Of a stretch of DNA of 64,000 nt, positions 11,925-61,770 are shown piece after piece; positions within the stretch are counted from its first letter, which is position 1, and each line of letters starts with the position of its first letter. The DNA is from Antedon mediterranea (Eukaryota > Echinodermata > Crinoidea > Comatulida > Antedonidae), in the NCBI RefSeq assembly GCF_964355755.1, contig NC_092675.1:24778412-24842411 (forward strand), in the 5' to 3' direction. The notes below the pieces were generated by a model, which worked only from the letters and a program-made list of their open reading frames with translations, did no database searches and was not told the origin of the DNA. Position numbers and translations under genes: made by a program.

Positions 11925-14900
11925 TTAATCAGCCACACTTGTAAACTGTAGGTAATGACAATACACAAAAAACACCAAAAAATGAGCACACGAGTATGCT
12001 GATATAAGCAGTGGATAAATATCAGGATATCTTGCAGGCGGTGGTACAAGCAGATGGCTTATACACAGAATTGACATTCCAAGCATTGATAGCCAGAACT
12101 GTAAAAAAAGAATAATTATATAGATTTGTTAGAGGATGAAATGTCTGGGAATTCCTCCATGGGTAGACAAAACTCAACAAATGAAATATTCAAACATTTT
12201 ACGAAAGCATGTTTAAACTATAGAGGGTGCTACAACATTTTGAAAATATATCAATACTGTATTTAAAAAAAAATATTTGCCTCAATAATAGTATAATAAT
12301 AAAAAAAGATTTTTCAAGATTTATAACATTGGTTTTTAGTGGTTGCAAAAATGATCTTGGATAGCACCCCATTCCCAAAAATAAAACAAAAAAATACATC
12401 TAAGGTTCATAAAGAAAACCAAATTTTACGGCAAATGTTAAAAACTTACAATTATTTGTATATGTATTGTTTTCTTTAACTTCTGTGAATTGAGCAAGAC
12501 ATTTGAGGCCATTAAAAACAGAAGACATAATACTGTTGTGGAAAGGAACTGGCCATCTTTGATCAGTAGAGGAAACATACTGTACATGATATAGAAATAA
12601 AAATACATAATTTTATAAAAAATAATGAAATAAAGAAAAACCGATATTATTTTAGTAACATCATACAATGTCTAATCACGAATTACAGGAGAAAAACTAA
12701 AGCCATTCAGTCAACTACGACTTTGTAGCAGGACATTTAGCTTAATTTTGGAATTATTCAATCAATCATGTTATAAATCTGGTAGCTATAGCTAAGGAGG
12801 GTGTGCACTGAGCAGTATATATTGACTAGAAATTACAAATGTGAGTGGTGCGAGCAGATCTTTAGATATAGACCTACAAATGTCCTTGAATAAATATTTG
12901 AAGGTACAGATCTTAAGGGGATAGAGGGGAGAGATTTGCAATCTGTGCCCTACAAATAGCTGCCTGGGAAATTGATTTTTTAGTTCAAACATCACTAACG
13001 TGTATATTAAAAGTGGGATGTTTTGGCCTGAAAGTTGGACATCATTCAGCTGGAATGTTTCACATTGTGTAATGTAAAATTTGTTTCGGATGTTACCATT
13101 GTTATATGATGGCACCATATATTATGATGTCGCCCTCTATAGTATGTAGGATACCCATAAGGGAAGAGACCTCTAAAACATGGCTTCAGTATAGAAGACC
13201 TCACGAATGATTGTGATAACAATGATGTCGAATAACTAAAGAATAAAAGCATTGTGTTACTAGAAACGTCTCTCATGTATTTAAAGAATATTACATGGTG
13301 GCAACGGTAGGATTGAAATATATAATAAAGTCAATCGATAAGCTATACTAGGCTAGAAGAATAAATAGGCTAGCGTACACGCCGCCGCACGAATAGATTA
13401 GTAAAACGTGTTGTTGAGAGTACACACGTGCGGAGAGAACTGAATTTGATTTTGTATTCGGATAGCAGAAGGCAAAAAATAGCCCATACACATTTTGTTA
13501 CCACTGTATACAACAACTGACAATATTAAAAAATTAATGTTGATCATGGCGAACCTAAATCAGCCAGAACCATTAAATATATCGACAGGCAACATATCAG
13601 AGAATTGGAAGAGATTCAAACAGAGATTTGAACTATATAACATTGCCAGTGGAATGTCACGAAAACCAAGTGAAACGCAAACGTCATTACTACTCCATAC
13701 TATTGGGCAACAAGGCTTAGATGTATATAACGCATTTAAATTTGAAAATGAAGCTGAGAAGATGAGATTAAACACAATTATGCACAAATTTGAGGAATAT
13801 TGCAACCCCAAGAAAAACATTACATTTGAACGACACACTTTCTTTTCACGAAACCAGATACCAGGTGAGAAGATAGACCAATATGTGACCGACCTAAAGA
13901 ACAAGAGCAAGACATGTGAGTTTGGTGAAATTGAGAAATCCCTCATCAGGGATAGAATTGTTTGTGGACTATTGGACAATCAATTGCGTGAACGATTGCT
14001 TAGAGAAGATGATTTAAATTTAGATAAGTGCATGAAAATATGTAAGGCATCAGAAGCGTCGAGAAACTTAGGGAAAGAGCTCAAAGCTGATCACCAAGTA
14101 GCGGTAGATCAATTAGGTATGTCTAATAATTATAAACATGATAGAACCAAAAATAGAGATAAAAGTAAACCATGCTCAAGATGCACTAGATCACATGAAT
14201 ATGGTAAATGTCCAGCTTTTGGCATGTCCTGCAATAATTGTGGTAGGAAAAATCATTTTAGTAGAGCATGTAGGTCAAAACGTAATGACAAACAAAAGGG
14301 CAAATATATAAATGCACCTAACAGAAGTAAGAGAAACGTGCATGGTATAAACAAAAGCAATGATAGCGATTGCGACAGTGAAGATGAATCTAATATTACA
14401 TTTGAAGCAATTAAAATAAGCCAGATAAACGCTAAAGATGGTGACACAGAAGTGTTCACAAATGTCAAAATTGAAATAAACCGTAACAAACCAACTTTCC
14501 TGAAAGTAAAAGTAGATACAGGTGCAGAGGGTAATATATTACCACTGAGAATGTATAGAGCTATGTTTCCTAAAAACATGAGCAATAATGTACCTAATGA
14601 TAGATATGTTAACAAATCTAATGTAAAAGTCACAGCGTATAACGGAGCACAAATCAAACATTATGGTTACATACACATCCCATGTTACTTCAATAACTTA
14701 CACACAAATGCAAAGTTTTATATTGCAGAGGTACAGGGACCAGCTATAATGGGACTACCGACGCTAAAGACTCTGAAGATAATACAGATAAACTGTGCAG
14801 TCGAAGTAAATGACAAAATCAAGGATGTAGAGGACATAAAAAGACTCTATCCAGACAGATTTGAAGGCATTGGCAAGTTTGAGGGTACGTACAAAATAGT

Positions 14901-17900
14901 TATAGACGAAACGGTACCACCTGTCATACACGCACCAAGGTCATGTCCATTAGCGATAAAAAATGACATAAAGGCTGAGTTGGATGAAATGATGAGATTA
15001 AATGTCATACAGAAAGTAGAGAAACCAGTGGATTGGGTTTCAAGTTTGGCCTACTCACAGAAACCAAATGGGAGATGGCGGATATGTTTAGATCCTAAGG
15101 ACTTAAACAAAGCTATAAAACGCACATACCATCACACACCAACCCTAGATGAGATAACACATAAATTTAGTGGGGCAAAGTTTTTCTCTAAACTAGATGC
15201 ACGACATGGATATTGGTCCATAAGACTTGACAAAGAATCCAGTTATCTTACCACATTTAACACTCCAGGGTTTGGAAGATTCAGATTCCTAAGATTACCA
15301 TTTGGACTGAATGTCAGCCAAGACGTTTTTCAACATAAGATGGATCAAATATTGGAGAAATGCATCGGAGCCACAGGCATCGCAGATGACGTTGCTGTAT
15401 TTGGGAAAACAGAAGAAGAACATGATCGAAACTTAATGGACCTGATGGAAACCGCTAGAGAATATGGGCTTGTATTCAATGCAGAGAAATGTGAAATAAA
15501 GCGACCGCAAATAAATTTCTTTGGTATGATATATGATAAAGATGGAGTACATGCTGACCCAAAGCGCATTGAAGCCATCAGCAAAATAAAACCACCAACG
15601 AATGTTAAAGAGTTACAAAGTTTCCTAGGCATCGCCACGTATATGAGTCCCTTCTGTCCCAAGCTGTCAGACAAAACAGCACCCCTCCGAGAACTTCTGA
15701 AAAAAGATAATGTATTTGAATGGAATGGCTCACAACAAAAAGCATTCGAAGAGATAAAGTCAACAATATGTAACCAGACAACACTGACCTATTTCCAACC
15801 TAACAAAAAGTTGAAACTACAAGTGGATGCATCCCTGATTGGAGTGGGAGCAGCACTCATACAAGACGAAAAAGTTGTTGCGTTTACATCAAAGGCATTA
15901 ACAGAAGCGGAACAAAGATATGCGAACATTGAAAGAGAACTACTGGCGGTAGTGTACGCAGTAGAGAAGTTCCACACATATGTGTATGGAAACTCATTCA
16001 TTGTGGAATCAGACCACAAACCGTTAGAGATGATCCAACTAAAAAATCTAATGTGTGCACCACCAAGACTACAAAGACTACTAATGAGACTACAAGGATA
16101 TGATCTGACAATCAAGTATAAACCAGGCAAAGAAATGGTCCTGGCAGATGCCATGTCTAGATTAAACCCTATAAATGACAGCCAAATTGAAGAAGAAGTA
16201 AAGATACAACTGTCATATTTCTCAGAGTCCAAAGAAGAAGAAATAAGGCAGAAGACCAAGGAAGACCCAACTCTCATAAAATTGGAAAGTATAATACAGC
16301 AAGGCTGGCCAGACAAACTAAAATCTGTACATAAGACAATAAGACCATACTTCCCATACAGGGATGAACTCACAACAGAGAACGGAATAATACTAAAGGG
16401 TAACAGAGTAGTGATCCCAGAAGTCATGAGACAGGACATCCTAAAACAACTACACACATCCCACTTAGGCATAACCAAGTGTCAACTGATGGCTAAAACA
16501 TCAATCCATTGGCCCAGTATTAATGAGGAAATAGAAAACATGATAAAGGCATGCCCATCATGCCAACAACACAAACACAAACAACAACATGAACCAATGT
16601 TGAAGAGAAAAATCCCTACCAAAGAATGGGAAATACTCGCAGCTGACCTATTCTACATAAATAGAGTAGAATACCTCCTAATAGCAGATTATTACACCAA
16701 ATATCCAATCATAAGAAAACTACCGGCAGACCAATCAAACAGTGAAACAGTTATATCGATAATAAAAAATGTCTTCTCAGAGTTTGGGATGGTTCAAGAA
16801 TTGATTACCGACAACGGACCAACAGTGAACAATTCAAACAGTTTAGCAAAGATTGGAAATTCATACACACAACCACAAGTCCTCACCACCATGAAGGAAA
16901 TGGATTCATCGAACGAATGGTTCAAACAGTAAAGTCAACCATCATCAAAGCTCAGCACAACAACACAGATGTTGATAAAGCTTTACTATACATGCGAGCA
17001 ACTCCAGTCGACTCAAAACTTGCCTCACCCGGAATGATGATATTTCACAGAGGACTAAAAACAGAACTTCCAACAAACAATGAAAAAATGCCAACCAGAA
17101 AAGAAATAAGAAATCGACTAAAAAACCGACAAGACAAACAGAAACAATATCATGATGAAAATACAAAACCACTTCAACCAATAAAGAGAGGAGAAAGCGT
17201 GAGAATCAGACACTCTGACAAAAACCCACAGTGGTCCCCAGCGAAGATACTAAACAAAACAAGTCCACATTCGTACAGAGTACTGACAGAAAACCAGAAA
17301 ACACTAAGAAGAAACCGAACACACATCCGCAAAACAAACGAACACTTTACACACATAATACTAGAAACACCACTTACTCATTACAAGACTATAGAACACA
17401 AACCATCATCATGCTCTAGCAGTGGCAGAAAAATTAAGAAACCAAATAGATTAGATTTGTAAATAAAACTTATAATTGTTTTATTATGATTGTAATATGA
17501 TTGATAAATGAGACCCACAGTTTAATTATATTTGTACACCATTATGAGTAATTAAAGAAGAGGGATGTTTAATATGATGGCACCATATATTATGATGTCG
17601 CCCTCTATAGTATGTAGGATACCCATAAGGGAAGAGACCTCTAAAACATGGCTTCAGTATAGAAGACCTCACGAATGATTGTGATAACAATGATGTCGAA
17701 TAACTAAAGAATAAAAGCATTGTGTTACTAGAAACGTCTCTCATGTATTTAAAGAATATTACACCATTTTCTCAAATCAAATATCAGATTAATACTCTGA
17801 TAAAATGTTAACAAAAAATATTCATTACCTTAGTACTGATGTCAATAGAAACCAGGTACATTCAAAAGGTTTTTCTTGTAACAAAAGGCAGACCGGTCTA

Positions 17901-26575: not shown

Positions 26576-33885
<7,310 letters not shown>

Positions 33886-34383: not shown

Positions 34384-37300
34384 ATGGCTTTATCTCCCAA
34401 AAAGCGAACAAATGATGATATTTCTGATGACGAAGAAGAAGGTGGTAATTATTTCATTGTCAATCGTTTATAATTTTATAATCTCTTATCACCGGCTATC
34501 ATAAATAAGGATATAAAAATAAATGTGTAGGCCCAAGATAGTTTTTTTTGTGTTATTTTGGTAACGTTGTACCGGACCTAAAAAGAATGAAAATTACTTG
34601 AAATCACGACTAGAAACTATTCGGTCGCGCCCTAACTTTTTAAATCAAACATGAGATTAACAGAAAAGGAGGAGGAAAGCCGGATTGTAATTGTAGGCCT
34701 ACTACCTACAGTACTAAAGGCCTAGGCCTAGGCCTATATTATTATTAATGAATTTTTGGATCAGTTTACACTTACAGTTTTTGGCCTCCTACTACTAGCC
34801 TAGACTAGGCCTAGACCTTTTTGGACTAGGCCTAGGCTATACCGTTATGATATGATAGAGGGGTGTGGTGTATATAATTATACAAAAGTAACAAATGAAT
34901 GAATGTTTATGAGTTGGATGGTGAGAATATTTCTATTCTCTATTTTTTATAACAAGACAGAGCAGTCAATTTTTCATCGAGTCAAATATCTCTATAGTAC
35001 TAACTAGGCTTATACCATCTGTATAAATCTTTTTTTCTATTTTTATAGATAAAGCAAAACATTTGAAACTTGAAATGAGTCGAAATTGTCCATATTTAGA
35101 CACAATAAACAGGTAATAGTATAAATTTATAATTACATGTTCAGTAATAACACTACAAAATACACAATCTGCCATACCATTTTTGTATTGCACAATGCTT
35201 CTAAGCGCTTCACATTATTACCCCAGTCATTATTTTTTACCAAAACAAACATGATGTATTCATTTCGGTAAAATCTGTATTACATAAAAATGCATGCATA
35301 TCTGAGTGTGAACAGAATGATTCTTTGACACTTGACAGTATAGTCGTCTGTGCGACCTGGAAGCAGAATTTTAGGAAAAATTTGAGTTTTGCATAGTTTG
35401 TACCTGTAGGTATGCATGCATTTCCGTAATATTTATCTACAGTACTTTTACAATACAGATTTTACCATATTAATAACTTTTGTACACAATTTATCACACA
35501 TTGTAACAGTTCACAATTCACTTTCATTCATCCTCTTTAAAATGCGTCTAGAATCAGTTATCAACTTAAGATGTGACGATCATTGTTGCTGCATTTATTC
35601 TCAAATTATTTGAGGGTTATAAAAGAGTTGTAGTTATATTTTAATTGGTTCCATATCAGGTGTTATTAATGCACTTGTCAATTGTATGACCCACTATACG
35701 ACCCCCGGGAGAGGTGTGTCATTTGTCCGATGTGCGTCATACCTTTGAATACCATGACGCACCCGTGCGTCAAAAATGTGACTTACTTTTAGGTGACCAT
35801 GACGCACCCATTTTGACGCACTGTGACCATGTTGTTTATGATATGGTGGGTGGTAAAGTGACGGACATTGACGCACCTTGTTCATTGATGTGACGTACCA
35901 TCTAGGTTTTTTGACGCACCCCTGCGTCAGTAATTATTTGTAAATGACTCACCCATGACGCACTTCTCCCGGGGGTCGTATAGTGGGTCATACAATTGAC
36001 AAGTGCATAAATGCAAATTTGCACAGTTGACACACAGTTCAAGTTACTGTAGGTAATTATAAATCTTAATATTTGAATTATTATTTCTAACAGGCATCTA
36101 CTGGACTTTGACTTTGAGAAACTCTGCTCTGTGTCTTTGTCCCATTTAAATGTTTATGCCTGTCTTGTTTGTGGAAAGTACTTTCAAGGTAAGTTGTCTC
36201 AATGCTGAACAAAATACTATCCAATTTTCATTTAGGCCTACCATAGAGATATTATACTATAATATTTCTATGGGCCTACATAGTAATACTTGGACTTCTG
36301 GCTTACGAGCTATAGAGCTTTACTGCCTCTTTAGAAGCCCCAGACGTTTTTGTCAAATAAGTGAATGAAACTACTGTTGTAGATGATACAGTATTACCAA
36401 ATGTTTCTAAAGAGATAACTGCTAAATGCATCGAAACACACATGTTACAAAGTGCATGCCTTCAAAGTTAGTACTGTATGATTGGAGTTACCGATTATGT
36501 ACAGTACGATATTACATTATTGAATATATTATTATAATGATTAATAATCACGAAATAATGTAGTGTACAGGGAAAAATTTCATCTTAAAATTTCGTTTAG
36601 CAATATTGCTAATAAAACTGATGTTTGAGTCGAGAAACATAGTTTTCTATAGTATATTTTGCTACACAATTGTAGAATTGTGTAGCAAGAAGGTTGTTTT
36701 GTATAGCTTTTTGCTATGCTACACTGGCGAAATTATTCCCTGGTGTAAGTCTAGAGAGTGTTGCATTCAACTATTTACTCAACTCGGAATACAGTATGAA
36801 CAAAAAATGTACAATGCTTGTAAATAATAGAGTATAGGTAAATAATAATGTTTGTCTATAAGGGCTAAGAAATATAAACTTTCATTATATTTTACCTTAG
36901 AATCTCACATAGTATTACTATTATTTGTTTGTTTATATTTCAGGTCGTGGACAGAAGTCACATGCATACACACATAGTGTGCAAGTAAACCATCATGTGT
37001 TTCTTAATCTTCACAATCTTAGATTTTACTGCCTTCCAGATAACTATGAGATCATTGATTCATCCTTAGATGATATCAAGGTTTGTTATGGATTGTAGTC
37101 ATGTAAAAATTACAGTAGATAGAACCCTTCCGTTGGGACAACCATATTCAGGGGACACTCGAAACTGTGCCACCACTAGTTAAGCCTGCTCAAACCATGC
37201 CCATGTTTGCGTTTGCTTCGGTCTATCCTACAACCGAATTGCATGGAACGGTATATAAAACAAATATTTACTGGGCTTTTATCAGAGCACAGTCAAAAAT

Positions 37301-40300
37301 ATAGCTCGAGACATACAGTACTACACTGTACCTCAAATTCTTCTCTGGATACAGTATAGTCTAAAGATCACCTTGGGCTTTATTTTTAACCATGCCCTTC
37401 AGCCCAGTATATATTTGTATAATATGTAACAATATACAGTAGCTGACACCTAAGATGATACTTTGTTGAGTTTCAAATTAATTATTTAAAAATAAACAAT
37501 TTTGACATATCAGTGATTGCAAATACAGTTGTTCAAAGGAATATGAATCATGTGTACTAATGTATACTGTAAATGAAGTTTATTTTATTATAAAAAAATT
37601 TACTCTGCTATTTGGACATCAGAAAATATAATAATGTAATTTACCTACTTATTTATCTACTTGTAGTATGTCTTGAGACCAACATTTACTGAAGATCTAC
37701 TTAAGGCTTTAGAAACAAGTTCCAAAATGTCAAGAGCCTATGATGGTACAACGTATCTACCAGGAATTGTGGGATTAAACAATATCAAAGCCAATGACTA
37801 TTGCAATGTGCTACTTCACGTAAGTTGCAATATTATTATGGCATTACAAAAATATTCTTTACTGTGGTAAGGCTCAAGACATTGAGAAATTAAGTTAAAT
37901 GTTATTATTGAGACAATTTTCTTTCACAAATTGTGGTCAACAATTTGAAAATACAGACTTTATCAAATATCATAAAACTTAGTCTACGCAATAAAACTTT
38001 ATGTGACAAAAAGTGTGATATGCCCAAATGTGGTGATGATATGCCCAAATATGGTAGTGATATGACATCATGATGTCCATATATGGGCACATCACAATTT
38101 TTGTGACAGAACTTTACAAAGTGTACTTCTCCATTGCTATAGGCTTTATGAAATGTAGCACCCTTACAACTGTACTTGTCCATTCCTATAGACTTTATCA
38201 AATGTGACACCCTTACAACTGTACTTCTCCATTCCTATAGGCTTTATCAAATGTGACACCCTTACAACTGTACTTGTCCATTCCTATAGGCTTTATCAAA
38301 TGTAACACCCTTACAATTGTACTTGTCCATTCCTATAGGCTTTATCAAATGTGACACCCTTACAACTGTACTTCTCCATTCCTATAGGCTTTATCAAATG
38401 TGACACCCTTACAACTGTACTTGTCCATTGCTATAGGCTTTATCAAATGTGACACCCTTACAACTGTACTTGTCCATTCCTATAGGCTTTATCAAATGTG
38501 ACACCCTTACAACTGTACTTGTCCATTCCTATAGGCTTTATCAAATGTGACACCCTTACAACTGTACTTCTCCATTCCTATAGGCTTTATCAAATGTGAC
38601 ACCCTTACAATTGTACTTGTCCATTCCTATAGGCTTTATCAAATGTAACACCCTTACAACTGTACTTGTCCATTCCTATAGGCTTTATCAAATGTGACAC
38701 CCTTACAACTGTACTTGTCCATTCCTATAGGCTTTATCAAATGTGACACCCTTACAACTGTACTTGTCCATTCCTATAGGCTTTATCAAATGTGACACCC
38801 TTACAACTGTACTTGTCCATTCCTATAGGCTTTATCAAATGTGACACCCTTACAACTGTACTTCTCCATTCCTGTAGGCTTTATCAAATGTGACACCCTT
38901 ACAACTGTACTTTCTTCAAGAGAAAAACTACATTCACATAAAGCGACCTCCAGGTGACATTTTGTGCCTTCTATCACAACGATTTGGTGAATTGATGCGA
39001 AAGATGTGGAACCCACGGAATTTCAAAGCTCATGTCAGCCCGCATGAGATGTTACAAGCTGTTGTTTTGTGCAGTAAGAAGAAATTTCAAATCACTCAAC
39101 AAGGTTTGTTATTTTGAACAAGTAAAAAGTACTATTACTGAATAATAATATTTTACATTTGTATAGTGCCATCCCAACGATCACTGTGAACTTTTCAATT
39201 ACATTCTTCATCACGTCAGGTCAGTGCTGCAAATTCTAGCGCTCTCGTCTGTCCATGACAGTGTCTGCATGAACTAGTAATCCTCTACTCGTCTCTAAAG
39301 ATGTACTAAGTTCTTAAAGTACACACACTGACTACCGGACCTGCAGTTTATAGTCATTACCCAAGAAGACCCAATCTACCACCAGAACCATGGAGCGAGT
39401 GAGCCTCAAATCCATTGCAATATGGATGTGATTTTTATCACTGGTGCTGCAATAACAACCTGAAACTAAACATAAAGAAAACAAAAGAAATGCAAATTGA
39501 TTTTAGGAAAATTAAAGAACCCTTAGAACCTCTGATTATAAATGAAAATGAGATTGAAGTAGTAAATGAGTACAAATATCTGGGTTGTATAATTGACAAT
39601 AAGCTAAATTGGATAAATAATGTAAATAAAGCCACATGCAAAGCAAACCAAAGGATGTTTATTTTAAGAAAAATGAAGTACCTACAAATTGACAAAACTA
39701 TACTTAAATTGTTTTATAACTCTGTAATTCTCAGTGTAATACTTTTTTGTAATGTTTGTTTTTATGGTAATACAATGCAAAAAGATAAAATTAAACTTAA
39801 TCGAATAGGAAATAGAGCAATTAGACTAGTAGGAGAGCACTTACCTGATGTTGAATCCTTGTATAAAGAAAATGTGTTAAAAAAAGTAAAAAGTATCATT
39901 GATGATGAAACACATCCTCTTCACAAACAATTTGCTCTCATGAATTCTGGCATAAGACTACGTGCACTTAATACCAAAACAAAACGGTTTAGGTGCTCGT
40001 TTGTACCTAATGCTATACACTTATATAACTCCAGAGTACAAAGGTAAAATGTAACCGATAATTTTTATCTAATTTTAACAATTTTTAGCCTCTTAACTTT
40101 TTGTGTGTGTTTTTGTAAATTGTATTTTATATTTTTGTATTTTGCCAGTTTTCAAATCACATTTCTGTTTTTTTAAATGGACAATAAAGTATATATGACT
40201 ATGACTATGACTATTAAGATTTCACAGTCTTGTCACTCGCTCAACATGTATCACTTCTATTAGGATATTGTACATATGATATACATTGTGCATCATCTTC

Positions 40301-43182
40301 ATCTATTGTTATTTTTATCTTTCAGGAGACCCAGTAGAATTTCTGTCTTGGTTTTTGAACACGCTTCATATTGCATTAAATGGGACCAAAAAGAAGAGCA
40401 GTAGCATTATTTACCAAGTGTTTCAGGGTTCTATGAAGATATTCTCACGTAAGGTTTTACCAGTAGATATAACAGAAAAAGATAAGGAAGAGTGTTTAAA
40501 GAAAGAGGAATACAAAGGTAGGTTTTCGTCTTGATTAGGAAAAGGCTCACAGAAATGAGCACTGCAGTAGGTATAGCTTATTCTAGGTGTATGTGTGTAT
40601 TATTAGGAGCACTGCAGTAGGTATAGCTTATTCTAGGTGTATGTGTGTATTATTAGGAGCACTGCAGTAGGTATAGCTTATTCTAGGTGTATGTGTGTAT
40701 TATTAGGAGCACTGCAGTAGGTATAGCTTATTCTAGGTGTATGTGTGTATTATTAGGAGCACTGCAGTTAGGTATAGCTTATTCTAGGTGTATGTGTGTA
40801 TTATTAGGAGCACTGCAGTTAGGTATAGCTTATTCTAGGTGTATGTGTGTATTATTAGGAGCACTGCAGTAGGTATAGCTTATTCTAGGTGTATGTGTGT
40901 ATTATTAGGAGCACTGCAGTAGGTATAGCTTATTCTAGGTGTATGTGTGTATTATTAGGAGGTTAAACCTTTTGTGGCAGAGCATGATGGAGGTTAAATT
41001 TTGACCACACTCCTCCCCTAGTTATTCTAAACATAAATTCTTTTGAGCATAAACTTTGGGCAGTCAACCTGACTACCCTGACCCAAACCCTTGCTGCAAC
41101 AAGTTAGAGCCCTCAGTTTGTCAAAATGGTGTAGTTACTAACAATTAAACTGATATTTATTCTAGTTAAGTCATCCTTAACCTGCAGATTACATAATTAC
41201 TCTAGTTATTTTGTTATGTTGATTATCTTGCATCGATCTTTATTTATAGAGACATCAATAGAATCACCATTCCTGTACTTGATGTTAGATATCCCAAGAG
41301 CTCCTCTGTTTCGGGATGAGTTAGAACAAAACATTATTCCACAGATTCCTTTGGCAACACTTATGGCTAAATTTGATGGCACCACAGAAAAGGTAAAGAC
41401 AATTCAGATAAGATAAAATTTAATCCTTACTTACTCAAACATAACACAGTAAATATTGATGTTAAACTACAGTGTAAAAAAAAAGGTCCTGCTTTAGTGG
41501 TATACCAAGTAGTAGCGACTCATCTACCTCACCAACTAACATAAATTTTGTTTAAACAAAGTTTAAAAAAACAAGACTACAAATTATTATATACTAAAGC
41601 AGTTATTTGTTTTCAGGAATACAAGACATATAAAGACTCTACCATTAAAAGATTTGAGCTTACCAGGTTACCTCCGTACCTTATACTTTGTCTCAAACGT
41701 TTCAACAAAAATACGTTTTTTGTAGAGAAGAATCGAACCATTGTTAATTTTCCAGTCAAGTAAGTGAATCAAATTGTTATTTGTTCTAGCCAGGTGCAGA
41801 TCCAGCATTATAGATTAGGGGGGCGGGGCGCGGCGCTAAATATTTCATAAATGATGAAAACGATCCGTCAGGTTGCAGAAAAATAAAAATAGTCATTATT
41901 TTATTTTAAAAAGTTACATTTTAGGGGGGTGGGGCTAAAGCCTGTTTAGCCCGCGCCTCCTACCTGCAGTCATTAATTAATAAAACCGTTTTACTGATGT
42001 GTCAAAAAAAAAAGATGGTACCACTTTATGTCATATTGCTCTCTTAACATGTAACTGATAAAATGTTTTCTATACCTAAATAGGAATATTGATTTAAAAG
42101 AGTATTTATCAGCTGATCCTGCTGTACGTAATGCTCATCCACATACTAGCTATGACCTCATAGCAAACATTGTACATGACGGTGAACCCAACAAAGGCAC
42201 CTATCGTGTCCACATTCTACATAAGGTAATAAGAAATATTTATTTATTAGAAAATAATTTTGTAAATTAAGATAATTTGTAAATAGTTTGAATGAGGGGA
42301 AAATTTTCCCTTACTCCAAAACAACAAAAAAACCATTCAAATAAAAAATGTTCCAACATGTAACAGAGCATGTCAGCAAACTTTATGTTTGTACCAATGT
42401 AAAAATCATGTACACATTCATTTCATCTAATCTAAAGCTCTGCCTACACTATCAAAATTTATGTGAATGTGATGTGCACATATATGGACATGATGATGTC
42501 ATATCACTACCATATTTGGGAATTTCAATACCATTATTTGGGCACATCACACTTTTTTTGGTCCAACTAGTTTGATAGTGTAGACAGAGCTTAAGGTCGC
42601 AGATTATTACATATTTTGCCCTACGAAAGTAGTTGTTTTAAGTATTCAAAAACCTCTCAATCTACAACTGAAATTAAAGGTACTGTTATAAAGAGATTTT
42701 AATGTTTTGTACAATCATCAGGGAACTGGAAAGTGGAACGAGATTCAAGATCTGCATGTGTCTGATATTCTGCCACAAATGATTGCCCTGTCTGAGGCCT
42801 ATATTCAAGTAAGTTGTAGTCAACAGAGTTCAACCCAATTGACATAAAAAATAATTGTACCATACAACTACTGATTTTGCTCATAAATTTTCATGCTCTA
42901 CTTGATAGATTCCGTGAATAATTTAGGAACTCTCGGAATAATTCTTGAGAATATCAAATGTAAAATATGGATTACTGAGCAGCCAATGACATTTTTATTT
43001 GAAAAATAAAGCTGGGGGAACAAAAATGTGTGGAATAGTCATTTTTGAATTTGATCTTACCTAATAATTTTAAAACTAAATATTTATTGTGTATTTGAAA
43101 ATGTAGTAGATAAAAATATTTAATCAATGGTTTTTTTTTGTAGATTTGGGAATTAAAAAAAGAAGCACAAACCAAAACATGA
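34384..43182 (+). CDS. USP39: USP39, U4/U6.U5 tri-snRNP protein (inactive ubiquitin protease fold)
   Basis: Twelve coding exons: 34384-34444, 35049-35112, 36094-36188, 36944-37080, 37667-37819, 38878-39103, 40326-40517, 41250-41392, 41617-41759, 42084-42225, 42722-42808 and 43144-43182; 494 codons, 493 residues. USP39/Sad1 stabilises the tri-snRNP in pre-mRNA splicing. The ZnF-UBP part reads CPYLDTINR, SHLNVYACLVCGKYFQGRG, HSVQVNHHVFLNLH; the USP-like part reads YDGTTYLPGIVGLNNIKAND, KRPPGDILCLL, FGELMRKMWNPRNFKAHVSP, VFQGSMKIFSRK and SYDLIANIVHDG. At the cysteine-box position (NNIKANDY) aspartate replaces the catalytic cysteine, as in known USP39. The acidic N-terminal extension is shorter than in vertebrates; an in-frame upstream ATG at 34273 exists but looks like 5' UTR. 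Exon 6 is preceded by 15 extra tandem copies of its own acceptor. Firm family assignment. Confidence 0.95.
35671..36006. mobile_element. MITE with 50-bp inverted ends and GACGCACC repeats
   Basis: A 336-bp element in USP39 intron 2. Left end GCACTTGTCAATTGTATGAC, continuing through CCACTATACGACCCCCGGGA, is mirrored at the right end. The interior is unusually rich in TGACGCACC words (about ten). No coding capacity. Confidence 0.85.
37979..38116. mobile_element. MITE family A, copy 2
   Basis: Has AACTTTATGTGACAAAAAGT and GTGATATGCCCAAAT on the left and the inverted GGGCACATCACAATTTTTGT on the right. It directly abuts the start of the splice-acceptor array in USP39 intron 5. Confidence 0.7.
38117..38912 (+). 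repeat. Tandem array of the USP39 exon 6 splice acceptor (16 x 49 bp)
   Basis: Each unit carries CCATTCCTATAG followed by the first 35 bases of exon 6 (GCTTTATCAAATGTGACACC and on to GTACTT). The first AG is at 38141-38142 and the last, functional one at 38876-38877, exactly 15 x 49 bases apart. The first two units are the most diverged; inner units differ at only a few positions (CTTGTCC or CTTCTCC, GTGACA or GTAACA). The last acceptor reads CCTGTAG instead of CCTATAG. Because 49 is not divisible by three and one frame contains TGA, only the last acceptor keeps the reading frame open. Confidence 0.95.
39276..39413 (-). mobile_element. tRNA-derived SINE fragment
   Basis: About 138 bp is clearly related to the body of the SINE at 18093-18385 (shared CTACTCGTCTC, AAGATGTACTA, TTTATAGTC, CTACCACCAGAACCATGGAG). 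It stops at the B-box end where a LINE fragment begins, so the head is missing. Confidence 0.75.
39414..40215 (+). mobile_element. 5'-truncated non-LTR retrotransposon (LINE) in USP39 intron 6
   Basis: An open frame at 39415-40047 encodes 210 residues matching the region downstream of the reverse transcriptase palm in jockey/CR1/Rex-type LINEs: WCCNNNLKLNIKKTKEMQID, then NEYKYLGCIIDNKLNW. The palm with its catalytic aspartates is absent. A 3' UTR with AATAAAGTATATATGACTATGAC and a short ATGACT tail follows, typical of 3' ends of these elements. Fragment only; sense to USP39. Confidence 0.85.
40557..40960. repeat. 50-bp minisatellite in USP39 intron 7
   Basis: Eight nearly identical copies of a unit beginning ACTGCAGTAGGTATAGCTTA; two copies have one extra T. 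It starts about 40 bp after the exon 7 donor. Unlike the exon 6 array it contains no recognisable exon sequence. Confidence 0.95.
41795..41972. mobile_element. Possible hAT-type MITE
   Basis: CAGGTGCAGATCC near the left and a right end GCGCCTCCTACCTG, with GGGGGGCGGGGC on the left and GGGGGGTGGGGC near the right. Inverted ends are imperfect and the target duplication is not clear. Confidence 0.35.
42434..42592. mobile_element. MITE family A, copy 3
   Basis: Left AAGCTCTGCCTACACTATCA and right TTGATAGTGTAGACAGAGCTT are inverted, and TAA flanks both sides. This is the best-preserved copy of the family. USP39 intron 10. Confidence 0.85.
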
Positions 43183-45421: not shown

Positions 45422-48400
45422 ATGAACTCCATATGGGATCGCTCAACAACAAACAATGGTATACCATATTTCATAAAGTAAGTACAAAGCGTTCAAAAAA
45501 TGGTCAATCAACTGATATTGAAATGAAATGCTTACAGTGGCTCATTTAGTTCACAACAATATAATATTTTGCTATTAATCAATACAAAAAATATATTTTG
45601 AAATTATTTTACAAATTATTTTTGTTCTACCAAGTATTCAGTTTTTTATTTCAGTGTATACAATACACAGTTCCAGCATTTACAATTGAAATTTGTTTTA
45701 TTGATGAGTGTGGATTACCAATTTCAATTTGATTTTCAGTCACTCTACTGAGCAAACTCAATGGGATCATCCAGATTTAGTGAAAGCCATGGATCATTTG
45801 GGTAAGTAATTTTTTTTTTTCTCAGGTTTTTAAAATCTTTAATTAAGTATTGTTTGGTGTGTTATTATTATTATGTTTTATTCATGTTCAGAGGAACTTG
45901 GCGGAATTCGATTTGCTGCTTACCGTACTGCGATGAAGCTACGAATGCTACAAAAAGAATTGTGTTGTAAGTAACTTAATACTACTACTGTTAAATGTTA
46001 TTAAACAGCAAATACATAGCATTTAATCATCAAGACCATCAATATAATCTCTAAAACAATATCATCATTTCCATGGTATTCACAATTATCATTTTTATAT
46101 TAACTTTTCCACATTTTTTAACTCAAAATACTGAAAACTAATGTGATGGCATGTATTTGCATTTTAATTAATACGTTTTACTAATACTGTTACAAATAAT
46201 GAATGTTTATGAGTGCGATGGTACTGAACAAATAATTTCATGGGGTGAAAGTTGGAATTTAATATTGCACCGAATGAAATTATTTGTTTTATAACACACT
46301 AGCTACCTATTAATTTATGTCAACAACTGAAATATATTCATAGGCAAAATATATTTTTGTGCGTTATAATATGCCATACCATACCATAGTTTTATTGTTT
46401 ATTTCATATAATAATTGTAGTGCATTATGTGGAAATGCGTTATATTTATTATCGTATGTCATACCATACCATAGTTTTATTATTTTATTTCATATAATAA
46501 TTGTAGGGCATTATGTGGAAATGCGTTATATTTATTATCGTATGTCATACCATACCATAGTTTTATCATTTATTTCATATATAATAATTATAGTGCATTA
46601 TGTGGAAATGCGTTTTATTCGCATTGCCTTTGATCAGTATGGCTTTCGGCAAATTAATAACACTGTGATGGATGTAGTACAGCTTTACAATATTATCTAT
46701 GATATTTTCACAATGTGTCGTGACAGAGGACACCCAGATGTAAGAGTTGACCACTGCACTGATCTTCTGCTTAACTGGATTCTAAACCTTTATGACAGGT
46801 ATTCTACAAACTATTGTGTTTAAAGTGTCTAGGAACACCAATTATGAAATTTCAATTTCACGTTTTCATGTATAGCTGTGTTTAAGGTCTACACTATAGT
46901 CAGTAAAAACCTTCTAATTTAATTGATCCACATTAGGTCTAGGACTGGATGTCTTCGAGTGATCTCTGTGAAAATTGGAATTGTCTGTTTGTGTGCTGCA
47001 CGTATTACTGAAAAGTATAAATGTAAGTACTATAAATCAACTACAACCTATAAAATCTTTTTCCATTTAATATCTGTTTGGAGATCATGTGAATTCATTT
47101 TTAGATAATAGTGCATAAGTTATTTCTCAGTTGCATGTTTGTACTGAAAAGACCTGTGTGTTCCGCCATACCATGAGAGTGTTAAAATATTGCTATCCAG
47201 TCAGACTTGATCATACATGAAAGTCCCTGTGATCTAATAGTGGGATGTCTGTAATATCAGCAAGTTTTGTTTTTACACTATCAAACTTTATGTGACAAAA
47301 AAACGTGATGTGCCCATATATGGCATATCACTACCATATTTGGTCATATCACGACCATATTTGGGCATATCACTACCATATTTGGGCTTTATATTTTTTT
47401 CGTACTTTGCTGAGTGGGTTAGAATTTGTATTGTTTCATTTAGAATGTATTATAATATTATTTAAAGCTATGTTTACACTATCAAACTAGTTTTACAAAA
47501 AAGGTGTGATCTGCCCAAATATGGTAGTGGTATGATATCATGTCGATATATGAAAACATCACATTTTTTGTCATATTAAGTTTGATAGTGAGACAAGGCT
47601 TGACACTTGATAATGATTTGTTTACAAACTATTTTTTCCAGATTTCTTTGAACAGATAAGTGACAAGACAGGACATGTTACCCGTAAATCATTGAATATA
47701 CTTTTACAAGACATGATGGAGGTAAATTTACATTTGATTTAAATGATCATTTTAAATTTAAAATATGCACATTGTTGTAATTATATAGATTTAAAGGTAT
47801 ATAGGAATTATAAACCACCCAGTGATATACTGGATAATATTTTATAAACTATGAGGAAATCGATTAGAATGACCTGCATCAATTGAGATTCGAAACTGGA
47901 ATCTTCGGCTTGATATTCAGATGTCTTACATCACAATCCCCTTCATATCTTTCTGACCTTCTTCCTGTTCACATACCTCCCCGTCGCCTTCGCTCATCTT
48001 CCAAAAATCTCCTTTCCATTCTGACTTTTAACACTAAAACGTATGGTCTAAGCACCTTTACTCCTGCTGCCTCTTGCTTATGGAATGACCCACCCGCCTC
48101 TATTAGATCATGCTTTTCTACTATCGCCTTTAAATCTGCCTTAAAACCTCATCTTTTTCTTTCAAATTGAGCTCTCTCATACTTCGATCACTTTGATCAC
48201 TTACTGCTGGAATTTGCGCATTACAAGTTTGCATTGTATTTTCAAAACAAATCTTTACTGTAGTTATGCCTTTTCTGGTATTTGTGCTTTAAAGTCTGTC
48301 TTCACACAAGTAGTTTCTAGTAATACATATTGCAATAATACAATATTAAGATTTTGTAACACATTATTTTCATTATATTGTTTACTATTTGTGTTGATCA

Positions 48401-51400: not shown

Positions 51401-53101
51401 TTGCAAAGGTGAATATGACCACTGATCTTCAGTTACATTATTAAACAAATTATATGTACTATATATGTGTACTTAGGTACAGTATAATATAACTTATAAT
51501 TAATGACTAAATAAATGTGAATAAATGACATATAAACTCATAAAACATTTACTAAGGCTTATAGATCATATTTGTTATAGGTACAACCAACGTCACTTTC
51601 TCCACAACACCTTGAGAGATTGTCTTTACCATCAACACAACATAGCAGAGTAGCTCCTCCTAGTTTGTCTTCATTCCAGCACACTGACCAAGCATCGCCG
51701 GGGATTGATATGGTTGACAGAGCTGATAAGACACCATTACAATCTACATACAGTCATGTACCTAGTCCTCAATATCAACCTCCAATTATCGCCAATTCAC
51801 TACAACCAAATAGGCGTCGCCCGTTTCATGTACCTAGTCCTCAAGATCAACCTCCAAACCTTGACAATTCACTACAACCAAATAGGCGTCGCCCGTTTCA
51901 TGTACCTAGTCCTCAAGATCAACCTCCAAACCTTGACAATTCACTACAACCAAATAGGCGTCGCCCGTTTCATGTACCTAGTCCTCAAGATCAACCTCCA
52001 AACCTTGACAATTCACTACAACCAAATAGGCGTCGCCCGTTTCATGTACCTAGTCCTCAATATCAACCTCCAAACCTTGACAATTCACTACAACCAAATA
52101 GGCTTCGCCCGTTTCATCTTTCTGACCAATCAGAATTGGTTTTTCCCTCTGCTAATGCTACCAGATTTTATCCATCAGAGGAAGCACAACTTCAGGATTT
52201 GGTTCAAAAGTTAGAGGATGTTTTTCCATTAAATGTCAATCATGGTAAGAGATACTTATCAAATGTTTTTCATTTTGAATTTGAACTTGATAGGATAGGA
52301 ATTCACAAAATGGCACGTATGTCACATGACCTTAGATGCAAGTCTCTTTTCCAGGTTACAAGAATATGGCTTTTACCATGACAAAATCACAAATGAATGA
52401 AACAATAGCAATGAGTGATAAGCAATATATTGCCTATCACGAATATTTTCAAATTTTATCAAAGTTATTTTATAATAGCCTATTGATTTAGACACAAAAC
52501 TGCAGTGTATCTGAAATTATCTCAATTTGATGCATGTTACACCTTTTTTCATAGTGAGTTAGAACTATTCATGGCTATTTTTAAAGGTCAAGTGACTTAT
52601 ATCACAGTTGCAGCATTTTTTGCCACAAATGTGACTCTGCATGCAGCCCATTTCTATCTTTAATATAAACTATGACTTTTTTTGCACTACAACTTTTCTT
52701 CTCAGAATATTCCCAGCATGCTCCTTTAGATTTGACCTCTGACATGGCTGCTGAATATCACCAAGATGGACTAGGTTTGTATTTTTATGCATTCACATTA
52801 ACCACCTGTTTATGACAGTCAATTTCACTCTTCTCTAGTTTCAATTTACATACCATGTACAGTACAATTCTTGCATATAATGATTATTTTTAATTTATTA
52901 TAATTATATCTGAATTATTCAATTGTTATAGAAATATAATTACAAGGAAAAAATTATATTAGTGAAAAATGATTATGTTGATGGTACAATTCTTTTTATT
53001 ATATACTTTTAGGTTCTCGTAGTGACTTGAATAAAATGTTATCTGCTGCCACCCGTGTTGGAAATGCTATGTCTTCATTGGTGTCAAAGGTCACTATATG
53101 A
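45422..53101 (+). CDS. Short dystrophin-family protein (WW, EF-hand-like, ZZ, coiled coil)
   Basis: Fifteen coding exons: 45422-45477, 45740-45801, 45892-45966, 46594-46798, 46937-47022, 47642-47721, 48402-48476, 49145-49253, 49644-49810, 50026-50216, 50747-50887, 51102-51276, 51581-52244, 52706-52774 and 53013-53101; 748 codons, 747 residues. It starts directly with a WW domain ([17 protein letters not shown], then [11 protein letters not shown]). Next come the helical EF-hand-like regions ([38 protein letters not shown]), a ZZ zinc finger ([27 protein letters not shown]-rich end), two coiled coils ([40 protein letters not shown]) and five 24-residue Pro/Gln repeats. In dystrophins the WW-EF-ZZ unit binds beta-dystroglycan and the coiled coils bind dystrobrevin. 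The actin-binding domain and spectrin repeats are absent. ATG 45422 follows an acceptor. Exon 4 begins after two extra copies of its acceptor (exon at 46594). Dystrophin/utrophin kinship is clear; dystrotelin is less likely because of the WW domain. Confidence 0.9.
46371..46616 (+). repeat. Triplicated splice acceptor of the dystrophin-like gene
   Basis: A unit of 86-87 bp (CATACCATACCATAGTTTTA ... TTGTAG, then GCATTATGTGGAAATGCGTT) is present three times. Acceptor AGs end at 46420, 46506 and 46593. The third leads into the exon at 46594-46798. The second is in frame with it with no stop between, which would add 29 residues. Each of the first two exon-like pieces is followed 33 nt on by a donor-like GTATGT (46454 and 46540), so each could be a phase-neutral 33-nt microexon. 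Confidence 0.92.
47270..47400. mobile_element. MITE family A, copy 5
   Basis: Starts TTACACTATCAAACTTTATG and contains ACGTGATGTGCCCATATATG and three ACCATATTTGG words; the right terminus is not preserved. Confidence 0.6.
47466..47612. mobile_element. MITE family A, copy 6
   Basis: AAGCTATGTTTACACTATCA on the left against TTTGATAGTGAGACAAGGCTT on the right; the interior matches copy 4 closely. Confidence 0.75.
47883..48400 (+). mobile_element. 5'-truncated L2/CR1-type LINE fragment
   Basis: An open frame at 47883-48170 encodes [40 protein letters not shown] and [10 protein letters not shown], the C-terminal end of L2/CR1-type reverse transcriptase proteins. The palm is missing. The element's 3' tail runs to within a few bases of the acceptor of the exon at 48402. 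Confidence 0.8.
48532..48833. mobile_element. MITE family B, full copy
   Basis: Left ACGATTGTAAGGCATTTGAT (to AATAGGCAG) and right TTTGCCTATTTATCAAATGC (to CTCACAATCATT) are inverted over about 30 bp. 302 bp, intron of the dystrophin-like gene. A truncated reversed copy is at 11214-11390. Confidence 0.85.
50406..50698 (+). mobile_element. 3' end of an L2-type LINE with (TTA)n tail
   Basis: Begins with codons for [11 protein letters not shown], the terminal residues of L2-type ORF2, then a 3' UTR containing GCGCCTTGAGCACTTTTGTG and GTGCGCTGTATAAATC, ending in (TTA)n. Intron of the dystrophin-like gene. Confidence 0.8.
51755..52114 (+). repeat. Coding minisatellite, 5 x 72 bp
   Basis: Five exact 72-bp units within one exon encode [24 protein letters not shown]-type repeats (24 residues). 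Units 2-4 are identical; unit 1 has QYQPPIIAN and unit 5 has QYQPP and a Leu for Arg change. The +1 frame is also open through the array. Confidence 0.97.
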
Positions 53102-55127: not shown

Positions 55128-56628
55128 CTAATCATTTTCAATATCTAAATTATTAATCTTAGCATAAAACTCAGTCCTTGTAAAGTTTTTGCCTGATAAT
55201 ACAAATTCTTTTAGAGCTTTTGCTTTTGGTATTGACGTTTCATACATCCGTAACCACATATTTGGCAGTACTGATATATCAGAATATAGTTGTGGTTTTG
55301 GGCAGTCCAGATGTTCTGGGCTAGCAACATGCTTTCTATATCGTTTACGGTTTAAAGCTTCTCTATCATCATGTAGGGCATTACAGACCATACATTCAAA
55401 TCCATCAATGAAATTCATTCGGTTGTAGTCGTCAACACCCCATTCCCTTTTCTGCATCGTCTCAATCAACATAGAGTTCGTAATTTTCCCGGTTTGTTTT
55501 AGTTCTAAATACTTATTATACTCATCATCATTGTTATCAAGATAGGTAAGATATTTGGCAAGTTCCTTCGGGCTTTTAAAATCATCAATTAAAATTGCAC
55601 TTCTCTCCGTGGGGAACCAGTCTTTGATCGTGCTTGAACCTTTGTATATTGGTACTGAACCTAACATTAATGGCCGCCAGAATTTCTCTGTAATGTAATC
55701 ATCGCATAAAGCATTTTCAAGAGCTAAAGTGAATTTGTATTTAGCTAAAATGTGTTTAAAACCATCTTTATCCATAGTTAATGGATCTTGAAATTCTACT
55801 GGAAGATCTTTATTATGTAGACATCTACCAAAAGAATCTACTTGAATGTATTGCATAAGTTCTTTAACATAAGAATCACGATCTGATGGTGGGTTGCAGT
55901 CTGAGTGCACAAACACCACTGGAGCATTTCTGCCTTTTGCTTGTGTTGATGCCAAGAATTTCTTAGTTGTTAGATCATCTAAAGATGCCAGATATTGGGT
56001 TGTTATTGGATAATCAGATTTGCGCTTAAATGTAGAAGTAAAATTGAAGAGTTGTAAGCATTCTGGCTGGGTAAGAATATAATTATTTTTGGGCGATTCT
56101 TCATGTAACAATGCCCATTGGTGATTGGTTTTTCTCGGCAGCGGTAAATCCTTGATTTTAAAATCTGTTCCATAAAACATAAACACTTTCATCAATGGAT
56201 GATTTTTCAAACGGCGGTCAACAGTAAAATAACACTTGTTTGCACCACATTTCTTGACTTTACCTTGTTCCCCAGTAAATCCTGTCCACCATAGTATGAT
56301 GGGATACTTTATATTACTCACTACCCATTGAAAGTTATTACCTTTAACAAAAAAATGTAAAATATATCAATGTAATGGTCCCTAAAACTGTTTGCTTAAA
56401 TATTTTATCTTGGTTACGTATTTTTACTAGGTAGTGATTTTCCACCACTATTGAGGATAACAGCTCATATCATGAAATTAGCTTAATTTTTAGGGATTGT
56501 ATGTTTTTTCTTGTTCAATAAATGAGTTTACCTTCAGGATATAATTTTCCACCATAATCTATGTTCCTGTCCACCCAAACCGCACCATCTTCCATGAAAA
56601 ACATTTCCTCATCATAATCCCAAACAAA
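55128..56628 (-). CDS. FUT10/FUT11: FUT10/FUT11-type alpha-1,3-fucosyltransferase (protein O-fucosyltransferase)
   Basis: Two firm exons on the minus strand, 56628-56532 and 56341-55128, encode 436 residues in one frame; the 5' end is unsettled. The protein is a GT10 fucosyltransferase of the ER FUT10/FUT11 (POFUT3/POFUT4) group, which modifies EMI-domain proteins. Landmarks are YPIILWWTGFTGEQGK, KVFMFYGTDF, ALLHEESPKNNY, HSDCNPPSDRDSYVKELMQY and the alpha-1,3-FucT motif DDYITEKFWRPLMLGSVPIY, with a C-terminal Cys-rich piece GFECMVCNA. It is an ancestral-looking member: some segments favour FUT11 (DDFKSPKELAKYL) and others FUT10 (DDYITEKFWRP). A candidate first exon is 57646-57548. The gene is convergent with the dystrophin-like gene. 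Confidence 0.9.
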
Positions 56629-58017: not shown

Positions 58018-58690
58018 ACATAACGTTCAGCTAACGTTATATTTGGGTTAGCGTTTGGTTAGGTTTACTACGAACGTTCGTATAACATTCAAATAACGTT
58101 CATTCATAGAATATTTTTTTCATAACATCGTTTAAACGTTATAAGAACGTTCAGAATAACATTCAAAATATGTTATTTACATAACATTGAAGATAACATT
58201 TTCCTATAAGAACGTTCAAAATAACGTTAAAAAATGATATTTACATAAAGTTATTGATAACATCTATCTAACGTTATAAGAACGTTCAGAATAACATTCA
58301 AAATATGTTATTTACCTAACATTGATGGTAACATTTTCCTAACGTTAGAAAAACGTTCAAAATAACGTTGAAAATGATATTTACATAACGTTATTGGTAA
58401 CATCTACCTAACGTTAAAAGAACGTTCGGAATAACATTCAACATATGTTATTTACATAACATTTAATAATAACATTTTCCTTACGTTAGAAGAACGTTCA
58501 AAATAACGTTTAAAATTATGTTTACATAACTTTATAGGTAACACCTACCTAACGTTATAAGAACGTTCCGAATAATATTCAAAATATGTTATTTATATAA
58601 CATTAATGATAACATTTTCCTAACGTTAGAAGAACGTTCAAAATAACGTTAAAAGTTATATTTACATAACGTTATGAATAATAACGTACT
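58018..58690. repeat. AACGTT-rich satellite, about 138-bp period
   Basis: AACGTTC and TAACGTTA palindromes recur throughout. The phrase AGAACGTTCAGAATAACATT and close variants recurs at about 58143, 58279, 58419 and 58560, a period of 136-141 bp with a half-period sub-repeat. No coding capacity. Confidence 0.9.
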
Positions 58691-61600
58691 GTTATAGTGA
58701 CGTCTAGACGTACTGTTATGGTGACGTCTAGACGTACTGTTATGGTGACATCTAGAGACGTACTGTTATGGTGACGTCTAGACGTACTGTTATGGTGACG
58801 TCTAGACGTACTGTTATGAGGACGTCTATCATAGTGTCATAGTGACGTCTAGACGTACTGTCATAGTGACGTCTAGACGTACTGTTCATAGCGACGTCTA
58901 GACGTACTGCCATAGTGACGTCTAGACGTACTGTCATGGTGACGTCTAGACGTACTGTCATAGTAATGTCTAGACGTACTGTCATAATTACGTCTAGACG
59001 TACTGTCATAAGTGACATCTGGACGTACTAGTATTGTGACGTCTAGACGTACTATTATGTGACGTCTAGACGTACTATATGGTAACGTCTAGACGTACTG
59101 TTATGGTGACGTCTAGACGTACTGTCCTAGGGACGTCTAGACGTAATGTTATGGTGACGTCTAGACGTACTGTTATGGTGACGTCTAGACGTACTGTTAT
59201 GGTGACGTCTAGACGTACTGTCATAGTGACGTCTAGAGGTACTATTATGGTGACGTCTAGACGTACTATTATGGTGACGTCTAGACGTACTATTATGGTG
59301 ACATCTAGACGTACTTTAATGGTGACGTCTAGACATACTGTTATGGTGACGTCTAGACGTACTGTTTGGTGACGTCTAGACGTACTGTTATGGTGACGTC
59401 TATACGTACTGTTATGGTGACGTCTAGACATACTGTTATGGTGACGTCTAGACGTACTGTTTGGTGACGTCTAGACGTACTGTTATGGTGACGTCTATAC
59501 GTACTGTCATAGTGACGTCTAGAAGTACTATTATGGTGACGTCTAGACGTACTATTATGGTGACGTCTAGACGTACTATTATGGTGACATCTAGACGTAC
59601 TTTAATGGTGACGTCTAGACATACTGTTATGGTGACGTCTAGACGTACTGTTTGGTGACGTCTAGACGTACCGTTATGGTGACGTCTATACGTACTGTTA
59701 TGGTGACGTCTAGACGTACTGTTTGGTGACATCTAGAGACGTACTGTTATGGTGACGTCTAGACGTACTGTTATGGTGACGTCTAGACGTACTGTTATGG
59801 TGACATCTAGACGTACTGTTTTGGTGACATCTAGACGTACTGTTATGGTGACGTCTAGACGTACTGTTATGGTGAAGTCTAGACGTATTATTATGGTGAC
59901 GTCTAGACATATTATTATGGTGACATCTAGACGTATTATTATGGTGACGTCTAGACGTATTATGGTGACGTCTAGACGTATTATTATGTGACGTCTAGAC
60001 GTACTATTATATTGACGTATAGACGTACTATTATGGTGACGTCTAGACGTACTATTATGGTGACGTCTAGACGTACTATTATGGTGACGTCTAGACGTAC
60101 TATTATGGTGACGTCTAGACGTATTATTATAGTGACGTCTAGACGTATTATTATGGTGACGTCTAGACGTATTATTATGGTGAAATCTAGACGTATTATT
60201 ATGGTGACGTCTAGACGTAATATTATGGTGATGTCTAGACGTATTATTATGGTGACATCTAGACGTATTATTATTGTGACGACTAGACGTATTATTATGG
60301 TGACGACTAGACGTATTATTACCTTTTTTTGTGACGTCTAGACGTATTATTATGGTGACGTCTAGACGTATTATGGTGACGTCTAGACATATTATTATGG
60401 TGACGTATAGACGTACTATTATGGTGACGTTTAGACGACGTACTATTATGGTGACGTCTAGACGTACTATTATGTGACGTCTAGACATACTATTATGGTG
60501 ACGTCTAGACGTACGGTTATGGTGACATCTAGACGTACTGTTATGGTGAAGTCTAGACGTACTGTTATGGGGACGTCTATCATAGTGTCATAGTGACGTC
60601 TAGACGTACTGTCATAGTGACGTCTAGACGTACTGTTCATAGTGACGTCTAGACGTACTGTCAATAGTGATGTCTAGACGTACTGTCATAATTACGTCTA
60701 GACGTACTGTCATAAGTGACATCTGGACGTACTAGTATGGTGACGTCTAGACGTACTATTATGTGACGTCTAGACGTACTATTATGGTGACGTCTAGACG
60801 TACTGTTATGGTGACATCTAGACGTACTGTCCTAGGGACGTCTAGACGTAATGTTATGGTGACGTCTAGACGTACTGTTATGGTGACGTCTAGACGTACT
60901 GTTTTGGTGACGTCTAGACGTACTGTCATAGTGACGTCTAGAGGTACTATTATGGTGACGTCTAGACGTACTATTATGGTGACGTCTAGACGTACTATTA
61001 TGGTGACATCTAGACGTACTTTTATGGTGACGTCTAGACATACTGTTATGGTGACGTCTAGACGTACTGTTTGGTGACGTCTAGACGTACTGTTATGGTG
61101 ACGTCTATACGTACTATTATATTGACGTCTAGACGTACTGTTTGGTGACATCTAGACGTACTGTCATAGTGACGTCAGACGTACTGTCATAGTGACGTAT
61201 AGACGTACTGTCATAGTGACGTCAGACGTACTGTCATAGTGATGTATAGTGACGTCTAGACGTACTGTCATAGTGACGTCTAGACGTACTTTCATGGTGA
61301 CGTCTAGACGTACTGTCATAGTGACGTCTAGACGTATATATGGTGACATCTAGACGTATTATTATGGTGACGTCTAGATGTATTATTATGGTGACGTCTA
61401 GATGTATTATTATGGTGACGTCTAGACGTATTATTATGGTGACGTCTAGACGTATTATTATGTGACGTCTAGACGTATTATTATGGTGACGTCTAGACGT
61501 ATTATTATGGTGACGTCTAGACGTATTATTATGGTGACGTCTAGACGTATTATTATAGTGACGTCTAGACTTATTATTATGGTGACGTCTAGACGTACTG

Positions 61601-61770
61601 TCATGGTGACGTCTAGACGTACTGTCATGGTGACGTCTAGACGTACTGTCATGGTGACGTTTAGACGTACTGTCATGGTGACGTCTAGACGTACTGTCAT
61701 GGTGACGTCTAGACGTACTGTCATGGTGACGTCTAGACGTACTGTCATGGTGACGTCTAGACGTACTTTC
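58690..61770. repeat. 24-bp palindromic satellite (TGACGTCTAGACGTACTG units)
   Basis: Roughly 125-130 units of GTGACGTCTAGACGTACTGT plus TATG span 3.1 kb. Each unit contains the 12-bp palindrome ACGTCTAGACGT. Sub-families alternate in blocks (ACTGTTATGG, ACTATTATGG, ATTATTATGG, ACTGTCATAG). A block from about 58800 recurs from about 60550 with landmarks such as GGACGTCTATCATAG and CCTAGGGACG, showing higher-order duplication at about 1.7 kb. Long open frames on both strands are artefacts of a 24-bp period. Confidence 0.97.

Follow-up and report, generated by a model that had tools for sequence, protein, structure and literature searches.

The stretch of Antedon mediterranea DNA analyzed here (64,000 nucleotides, called the window) contains a complete coding region for USP39 on the forward strand, at 34384..43182. 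The gene model has 12 exons (34384-34444, 35049-35112, 36094-36188, 36944-37080, 37667-37819, 38878-39103, 40326-40517, 41250-41392, 41617-41759, 42084-42225, 42722-42808 and 43144-43182), is open throughout, has GT..AG introns and encodes 493 residues. With exon 6 starting at 38878, its translation is identical, letter for letter, to the NCBI protein 'ubiquitin carboxyl-terminal hydrolase 39-like isoform X1 [Antedon mediterranea]' (P0001), whose gene is placed on a 31.7-Mb contig. Use of an alternative donor 3 bases upstream in exon 1 gives a model that is one residue shorter. P0001 has the Pfam domains zf-UBP and UCH, and these domains, the PDB chains matched by exon 6 and the homologues place the gene in the USP39/SAD1 group of spliceosomal proteins with a UCH fold.

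Exon 6 matches human USP39 (tri-snRNP-associated protein 2) over 75 residues, without gaps and from its first codon. The spacing across the exon 5/6 junction is kept in 114 of the 120 homologues listed from 4365 passing, P0001 included. No crinoid other than Antedon was recognized among the same 120, and the matches listed from the literature contained no paper on the A. mediterranea nuclear genome. Given the human match and the conserved junction spacing, exon 6 most likely starts at 38878. The deposited model may itself be based partly on homology. An earlier reading made from the sequence alone had assigned this exon to USP39 exon 6, and P0001 and the human match agree with that assignment.

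The exon 6 start lies in a tandem array at 38114..38912 that spans the intron 5/exon 6 acceptor. Tandem Repeats Finder (TRF) reported a single array there, with a period of 49 bp, 16.3 copies, 96% matches, 0% indels and a score of 1470. Short units of this kind, arranged head to tail, make it a minisatellite, a class whose units are given as 15-100 bp (PMC3618361). Each unit consists of 14 intron bases (consensus GTCCATTCCTATAG) followed by 35 exon bases (GCTTTATCAAATGTGACACCCTTACAACTGTACTT). There are therefore 16 AG acceptors at 49-nt spacing, with the first exon base running from 38143 in unit 1 to 38878 in unit 16, and the junction reads AG|G in all units except unit 2, where it is AG|A. 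The 15 upstream units (38129..38863, acceptors at 38143 + 49n), which we call decoys, are followed by unit 16 (38864..38912). This last unit carries CTGTAG|GCTTTA, with which the true exon 6 begins, keeps the frame where no other does, and is the one used by the deposited protein. The sequence-only reading had described the array in these terms, as 16 copies of a 49-bp unit made of the 3' splice site and the first 35 coding bases of exon 6, and its unit composition and copy number both stand. None of the 14-mers of the consensus unit recurs outside the array in the window, on either strand, and we rejected the idea that the unit is a repeat dispersed within it.

The units are very similar, as had also been claimed for the inner ones, with a mean pairwise identity of 96.4% over all 16 and 97.6% over units 2-15. 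Unit 1 differs from the consensus at five positions and unit 16 at two, and seven of the 16 units do not differ at all. Near-identical repeats are prone to misassembly, and the copy number, read from one assembly, could in principle be an assembly or haplotype artefact. We regard this as very improbable, since the variants are distributed as a mosaic in which no long block is duplicated. Over the 799 bases of the array, exact matches extend to at most 167 bases between units one apart and to 149 bases at lags of 2-11 units, and on these lengths simple duplication of a large block through misassembly was rejected. The opposite error, collapse of the array to too few copies, may have occurred. 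Neighboring units were no more alike than expected in random order (P = 0.36). The mosaic, in its run lengths and its lack of a neighbor effect, is compatible with later homogenization, and together with the near-identical interior it makes the earlier suggestion of homogenization plausible. Variants were found at 8/560 exonic and 8/224 intronic positions (P = 0.09). Both exonic variants present in units 3-15 are silent in the original frame (chance 0.07, or 0.18 counting transitions only), which is a hint, though not evidence, that these units formerly served as the coding copy.

All 15 upstream acceptors lead to a premature stop if used. The unit length of 49 is not divisible by 3, and decoys that add a multiple of 3 fail as well, because a unit is then read in a closed frame. 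Splicing to unit 1 gives a TGA at codon 173, and splicing to any of units 2-14 gives a stop at codon 208 (TGA in 11 units, TAA in two). From unit 15, 49 bases are added and a TGA is reached in exon 6, at codon 213. A stop also results when intron 5 is retained in full or when exon 6 is skipped. We therefore rejected the decoys as frame-keeping alternatives, in accord with the earlier claim that only the last unit keeps the frame while the others run into TGA or TAA. Protein conservation and the deposited gene model make it probable that the 16th AG is the one picked, as the earlier reading required. Every decoy stop precedes the last exon junction by 853 nt or more, so nonsense-mediated decay (NMD) of the corresponding mRNAs is expected. 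Established rules predict NMD for stops this early.

We looked for truncated products among known proteins. One protein search, made with words from the last 45 residues, returned no candidate whatever and so had no working control. A second search (162 proteins) yielded no truncated product among the 120 listed. When two array tails were tested against these 120 together with the 120 homologues listed above, none of the 240 proteins matched at E ≤ 1, while the exon 5 peptide matched 240 of 240. The absence of truncated products is weak evidence, because NMD and coverage would both hide them.

To compare the acceptors we used a matrix built from the ten other USP39 acceptors, which is small and crude. 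The real acceptor scored 6.70, and 12 of the 15 decoys scored 6.71-6.72, within 0.02 bits of it; the weaker decoys were units 1, 2 and 7 (3.42-4.95). Of the 40 AGs scanned from about 37840 in intron 5 to the end of exon 6, the 16 in the array outranked the other 24, and each unit thus holds a plausible splice site. Of 3331 AGs in the rest of the window, 65 score at least as high as the real acceptor, so a score of this size is fairly selective without being unique.

The array acceptors of units 1, 2, 7, 15 and 16, the five examined, all have a match to the branch-point motif yTnAy 26-27 nt upstream, and four of them have a second match at 44 nt. For unit 16 the putative branch point is CTTAC at 38849..38853, with its A 26 nt upstream of the exon, and the second match is TTTAT at 44 nt. 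Both lie in the exon-derived part of unit 15. The branch point of the functional acceptor is therefore probably a copy of coding sequence. The earlier proposal that branch-point use is confined to the last unit does not fit this arrangement, in which the nearest matches fall one unit upstream.

These results bear on the possibility that the array is ordinary intron sequence, an inert minisatellite whose upstream acceptors are never used. The deposited protein takes the last acceptor, truncated products were not found among the listed proteins (one of the searches being without a control), and tandem arrays abound in the window (25 TRF rows, some overlapping), all as this reading would have it. 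Against it stand the scores, which in all 16 array acceptors exceed those of the remaining 24 AGs scanned over intron 5 and exon 6, and the branch-point match 26-27 nt upstream of each of the five acceptors examined. We consider it unlikely.

Because 12 of the 15 decoys score like the real site, context must decide among them. The exon defined from the last acceptor is 226 nt long and is the shortest, as this acceptor is nearest to the exon 6 donor (AAG|GTTTGT, 39104..39109; U1 pairing -6.0); from the decoys the exon would be 275 to 961 nt. The best GT in 38100-38900 has a U1 pairing of -4.2 kcal/mol, compared with -5.1 to -10.6 for the 11 real donors, in a scan that left out GTs within exon 6. 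With every array GT weaker than each real donor, the decoy units are unlikely to act as separate exons, and we rejected mini-exons or tandemly duplicated exons as a description of them. A purine run, AAGAGAAAAA, lies in exon 6 at 38918..38927 and is a possible splicing enhancer. Among the eight of 16 acceptors examined for this feature, only the last is followed within 80 nt by a purine run longer than 4 (10 nt).

The predicted unpaired fraction of the pyrimidine tract is 0.63 for unit 16 and 0.19-0.37 for the five units before it (11-15), which carry a G variant. Over all 16 units, the five C-type tracts range from 0.53 to 0.67 and the 11 G-type tracts from 0.19 to 0.43; the two types separate cleanly at two of four folding settings and overlap at the other two. 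The value for unit 16 is nothing special, as the tracts of the ten other USP39 acceptors span 0.25 to 0.72. Its C variant is shared with units 1, 3, 6 and 10 (five of 16 units in total), and is therefore not unique to the last unit and could be there by chance. In a reporter library in human K562 cells (Mikl et al. 2019), equal tandem acceptors 2-59 nt apart showed no order preference and an unpaired tract was preferred (PMC6783452).

The reading that we favor, and hold to be probable though well short of certain, is that tandem duplication created a 16-acceptor minisatellite in which the last site is chosen by context and leakage is cleared by NMD. A short tandem duplication over the exon 6 3' splice site would have expanded to the present 16 units. 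Unequal exchange between units would always leave a complete last junction beside exon 6, and since each unit ends in a complete acceptor and exon start, the array could grow without damage to the coding sequence. The last acceptor would be chosen mainly by its context, namely the nearest donor, a purine run close downstream and an open pyrimidine tract, the tracts of units 11-15 with their G variant being predicted to pair. Exon definition would thus operate at the last acceptor with some leakage to upstream units, and NMD should remove the early-stop mRNAs that result.

A different use of the same features would be a regulatory rheostat, in which the decoys are heavily used and regulated and most USP39 pre-mRNA goes to NMD; USP39 output would follow from copy number, and a shortage of USP39 would in turn act on the choice of acceptor. 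The near-equal scores of 12 of the 15 decoys and the stops that all 15 give, 853 nt or more ahead of the last junction, fit such a scheme, and by simple arithmetic equal use without order preference would leave about 1/16 of the transcripts productive. Such a loss would presumably be costly for an essential factor. The human ABCA7 intron 18 VNTR (PMC5954066) has a 25-bp unit whose first two bases form a splice donor, and retention of one unit shifts the frame to an early stop. That retention amounts to only about 2% and stays the same whatever the array size, an argument against a simple copy-number rheostat; exon 19 skipping correlates there with VNTR length, and expression does so inversely. 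Loss of USP39 affects 5' splice sites in the available text of a USP39 degrader paper (PMC12851022), where feedback on acceptor choice finds no support. Such feedback is speculation. We judge the rheostat quite unlikely. Less likely by a little is the specific form in which USP39 output is naturally set by skipping of the 15 decoys, with array length, the C/G variant and the USP39 level jointly tuning the productive share.

How the first duplication under our favored account arose may be indicated by the left flank of the array. A MITE-like element with terminal inverted repeats lies at 37975..38125 (no strand assigned), identified from a self-inverted blastn match, and its right end overlaps the left edge of the array. 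It matches a relative at 42425-42600 (blastn, 77% over 155 columns). Further members of this family of short inverted-repeat elements occur near 27010, 45150, 47250-47630 and 63040-63210; several members have 21-bp internal repeats, and two lie in USP39 introns. The last bases of the element at the array, TTTACAAAGTGTA, resemble the exon-side edge of the array, CTTACAACTGTAC. A match as good was obtained in 4 of 3000 random pairs, although array edges match partly by construction. The element may have seeded the first duplication. Its insertion would have created a short homology to a stretch of exon 6 lying about 49 bp away, and slippage or unequal exchange between the homologies would then have produced the duplication.

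Minisatellites that supply splice sites have been described on the donor side. Turri et al. 1995 describes, by its title, a minisatellite giving multiple splice donor sites, reportedly in the gene IFI6/6-16 (G1P3). In both that case and ours a minisatellite supplies multiple splice sites to one transcript, but the sites are donors, to go by the title, and those of the USP39 array are acceptors. The ABCA7 and USP39 loci are alike in having an intronic minisatellite at an exon boundary, a splice site in each unit and a frame-breaking early stop. In ABCA7, however, the repeated site is a donor and no coding sequence is described in the unit, whereas the USP39 unit combines an acceptor with 35 coding bases and the last site is used. 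The USP39 array does not belong to the donor type of IFI6 and ABCA7, as its repeated site is an acceptor and its best GT falls below the 11 real donors. These donor minisatellites are the nearest known kind, and the USP39 array is their acceptor-side counterpart. No other such counterpart was found among the matches listed from open-licence PMC papers, which does not prove its absence. In intron gain by tandem genomic duplication, as set out in another paper (PMC3443670), segmental duplication likewise copies splice-site sequence and places extra copies beside an exon; at USP39 there is no new intron, and an existing one has been lengthened by repeated duplication of the acceptor junction. Tandem acceptors of the NAGNAG type also compete as neighbors for one donor, but the USP39 sites are 16 in number and 49 nt apart, each with its own pyrimidine tract and, in the decoys, a frame-breaking outcome.

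Choice among equal 3' splice sites has usually been studied with few competing sites. The library of Mikl et al. 2019 used two competing acceptors (PMC6783452). The USP39 array offers a natural test of such choice, with 16 acceptors at fixed spacing in a gene of the spliceosome. Use of each acceptor has a distinct readout, an exon extension of 49n bases, and the C/G tract variants are built in. The array also points to a way in which sequence of coding origin can turn into a minisatellite and leave the protein unharmed, because exchange between units would rebuild the last junction.

A second array lies in USP39 intron 7, at 40557-40961 (50 bp x 8.1, 99%), starting about 40 nt after exon 7. 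Each unit scored there has a donor-like GCA|GTAGGTA (U1 pairing -7.2, against -10.3 for the true donor) and an acceptor-like TTATTAG|G (score 6.43, against a leave-one-out 3.60 for the true intron 7 acceptor). Intron 6 contains a 214-codon open frame at 39403-40047 that by eye resembles the terminal part of a LINE reverse transcriptase and has no Pfam match. Outside the gene, a 1149-codon open frame of a retrotransposon at 13483-17462 encodes reverse transcriptase, RNase H and integrase zinc-binding domains, and its end is overlapped by a second open frame in another frame. Two further tandem arrays coincide with open frames. That at 51754-52117 (72 bp x 5.1) lies within a 266-codon open frame without a Pfam match and would, if coding, specify a repeated 24-residue peptide; that at 58684-61767 (24 bp x 128, about 3 kb) has open frames on both strands. 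On the reverse strand, at 55128-56366, a 412-codon open frame contains both glycosyltransferase family 10 (fucosyltransferase) domains.
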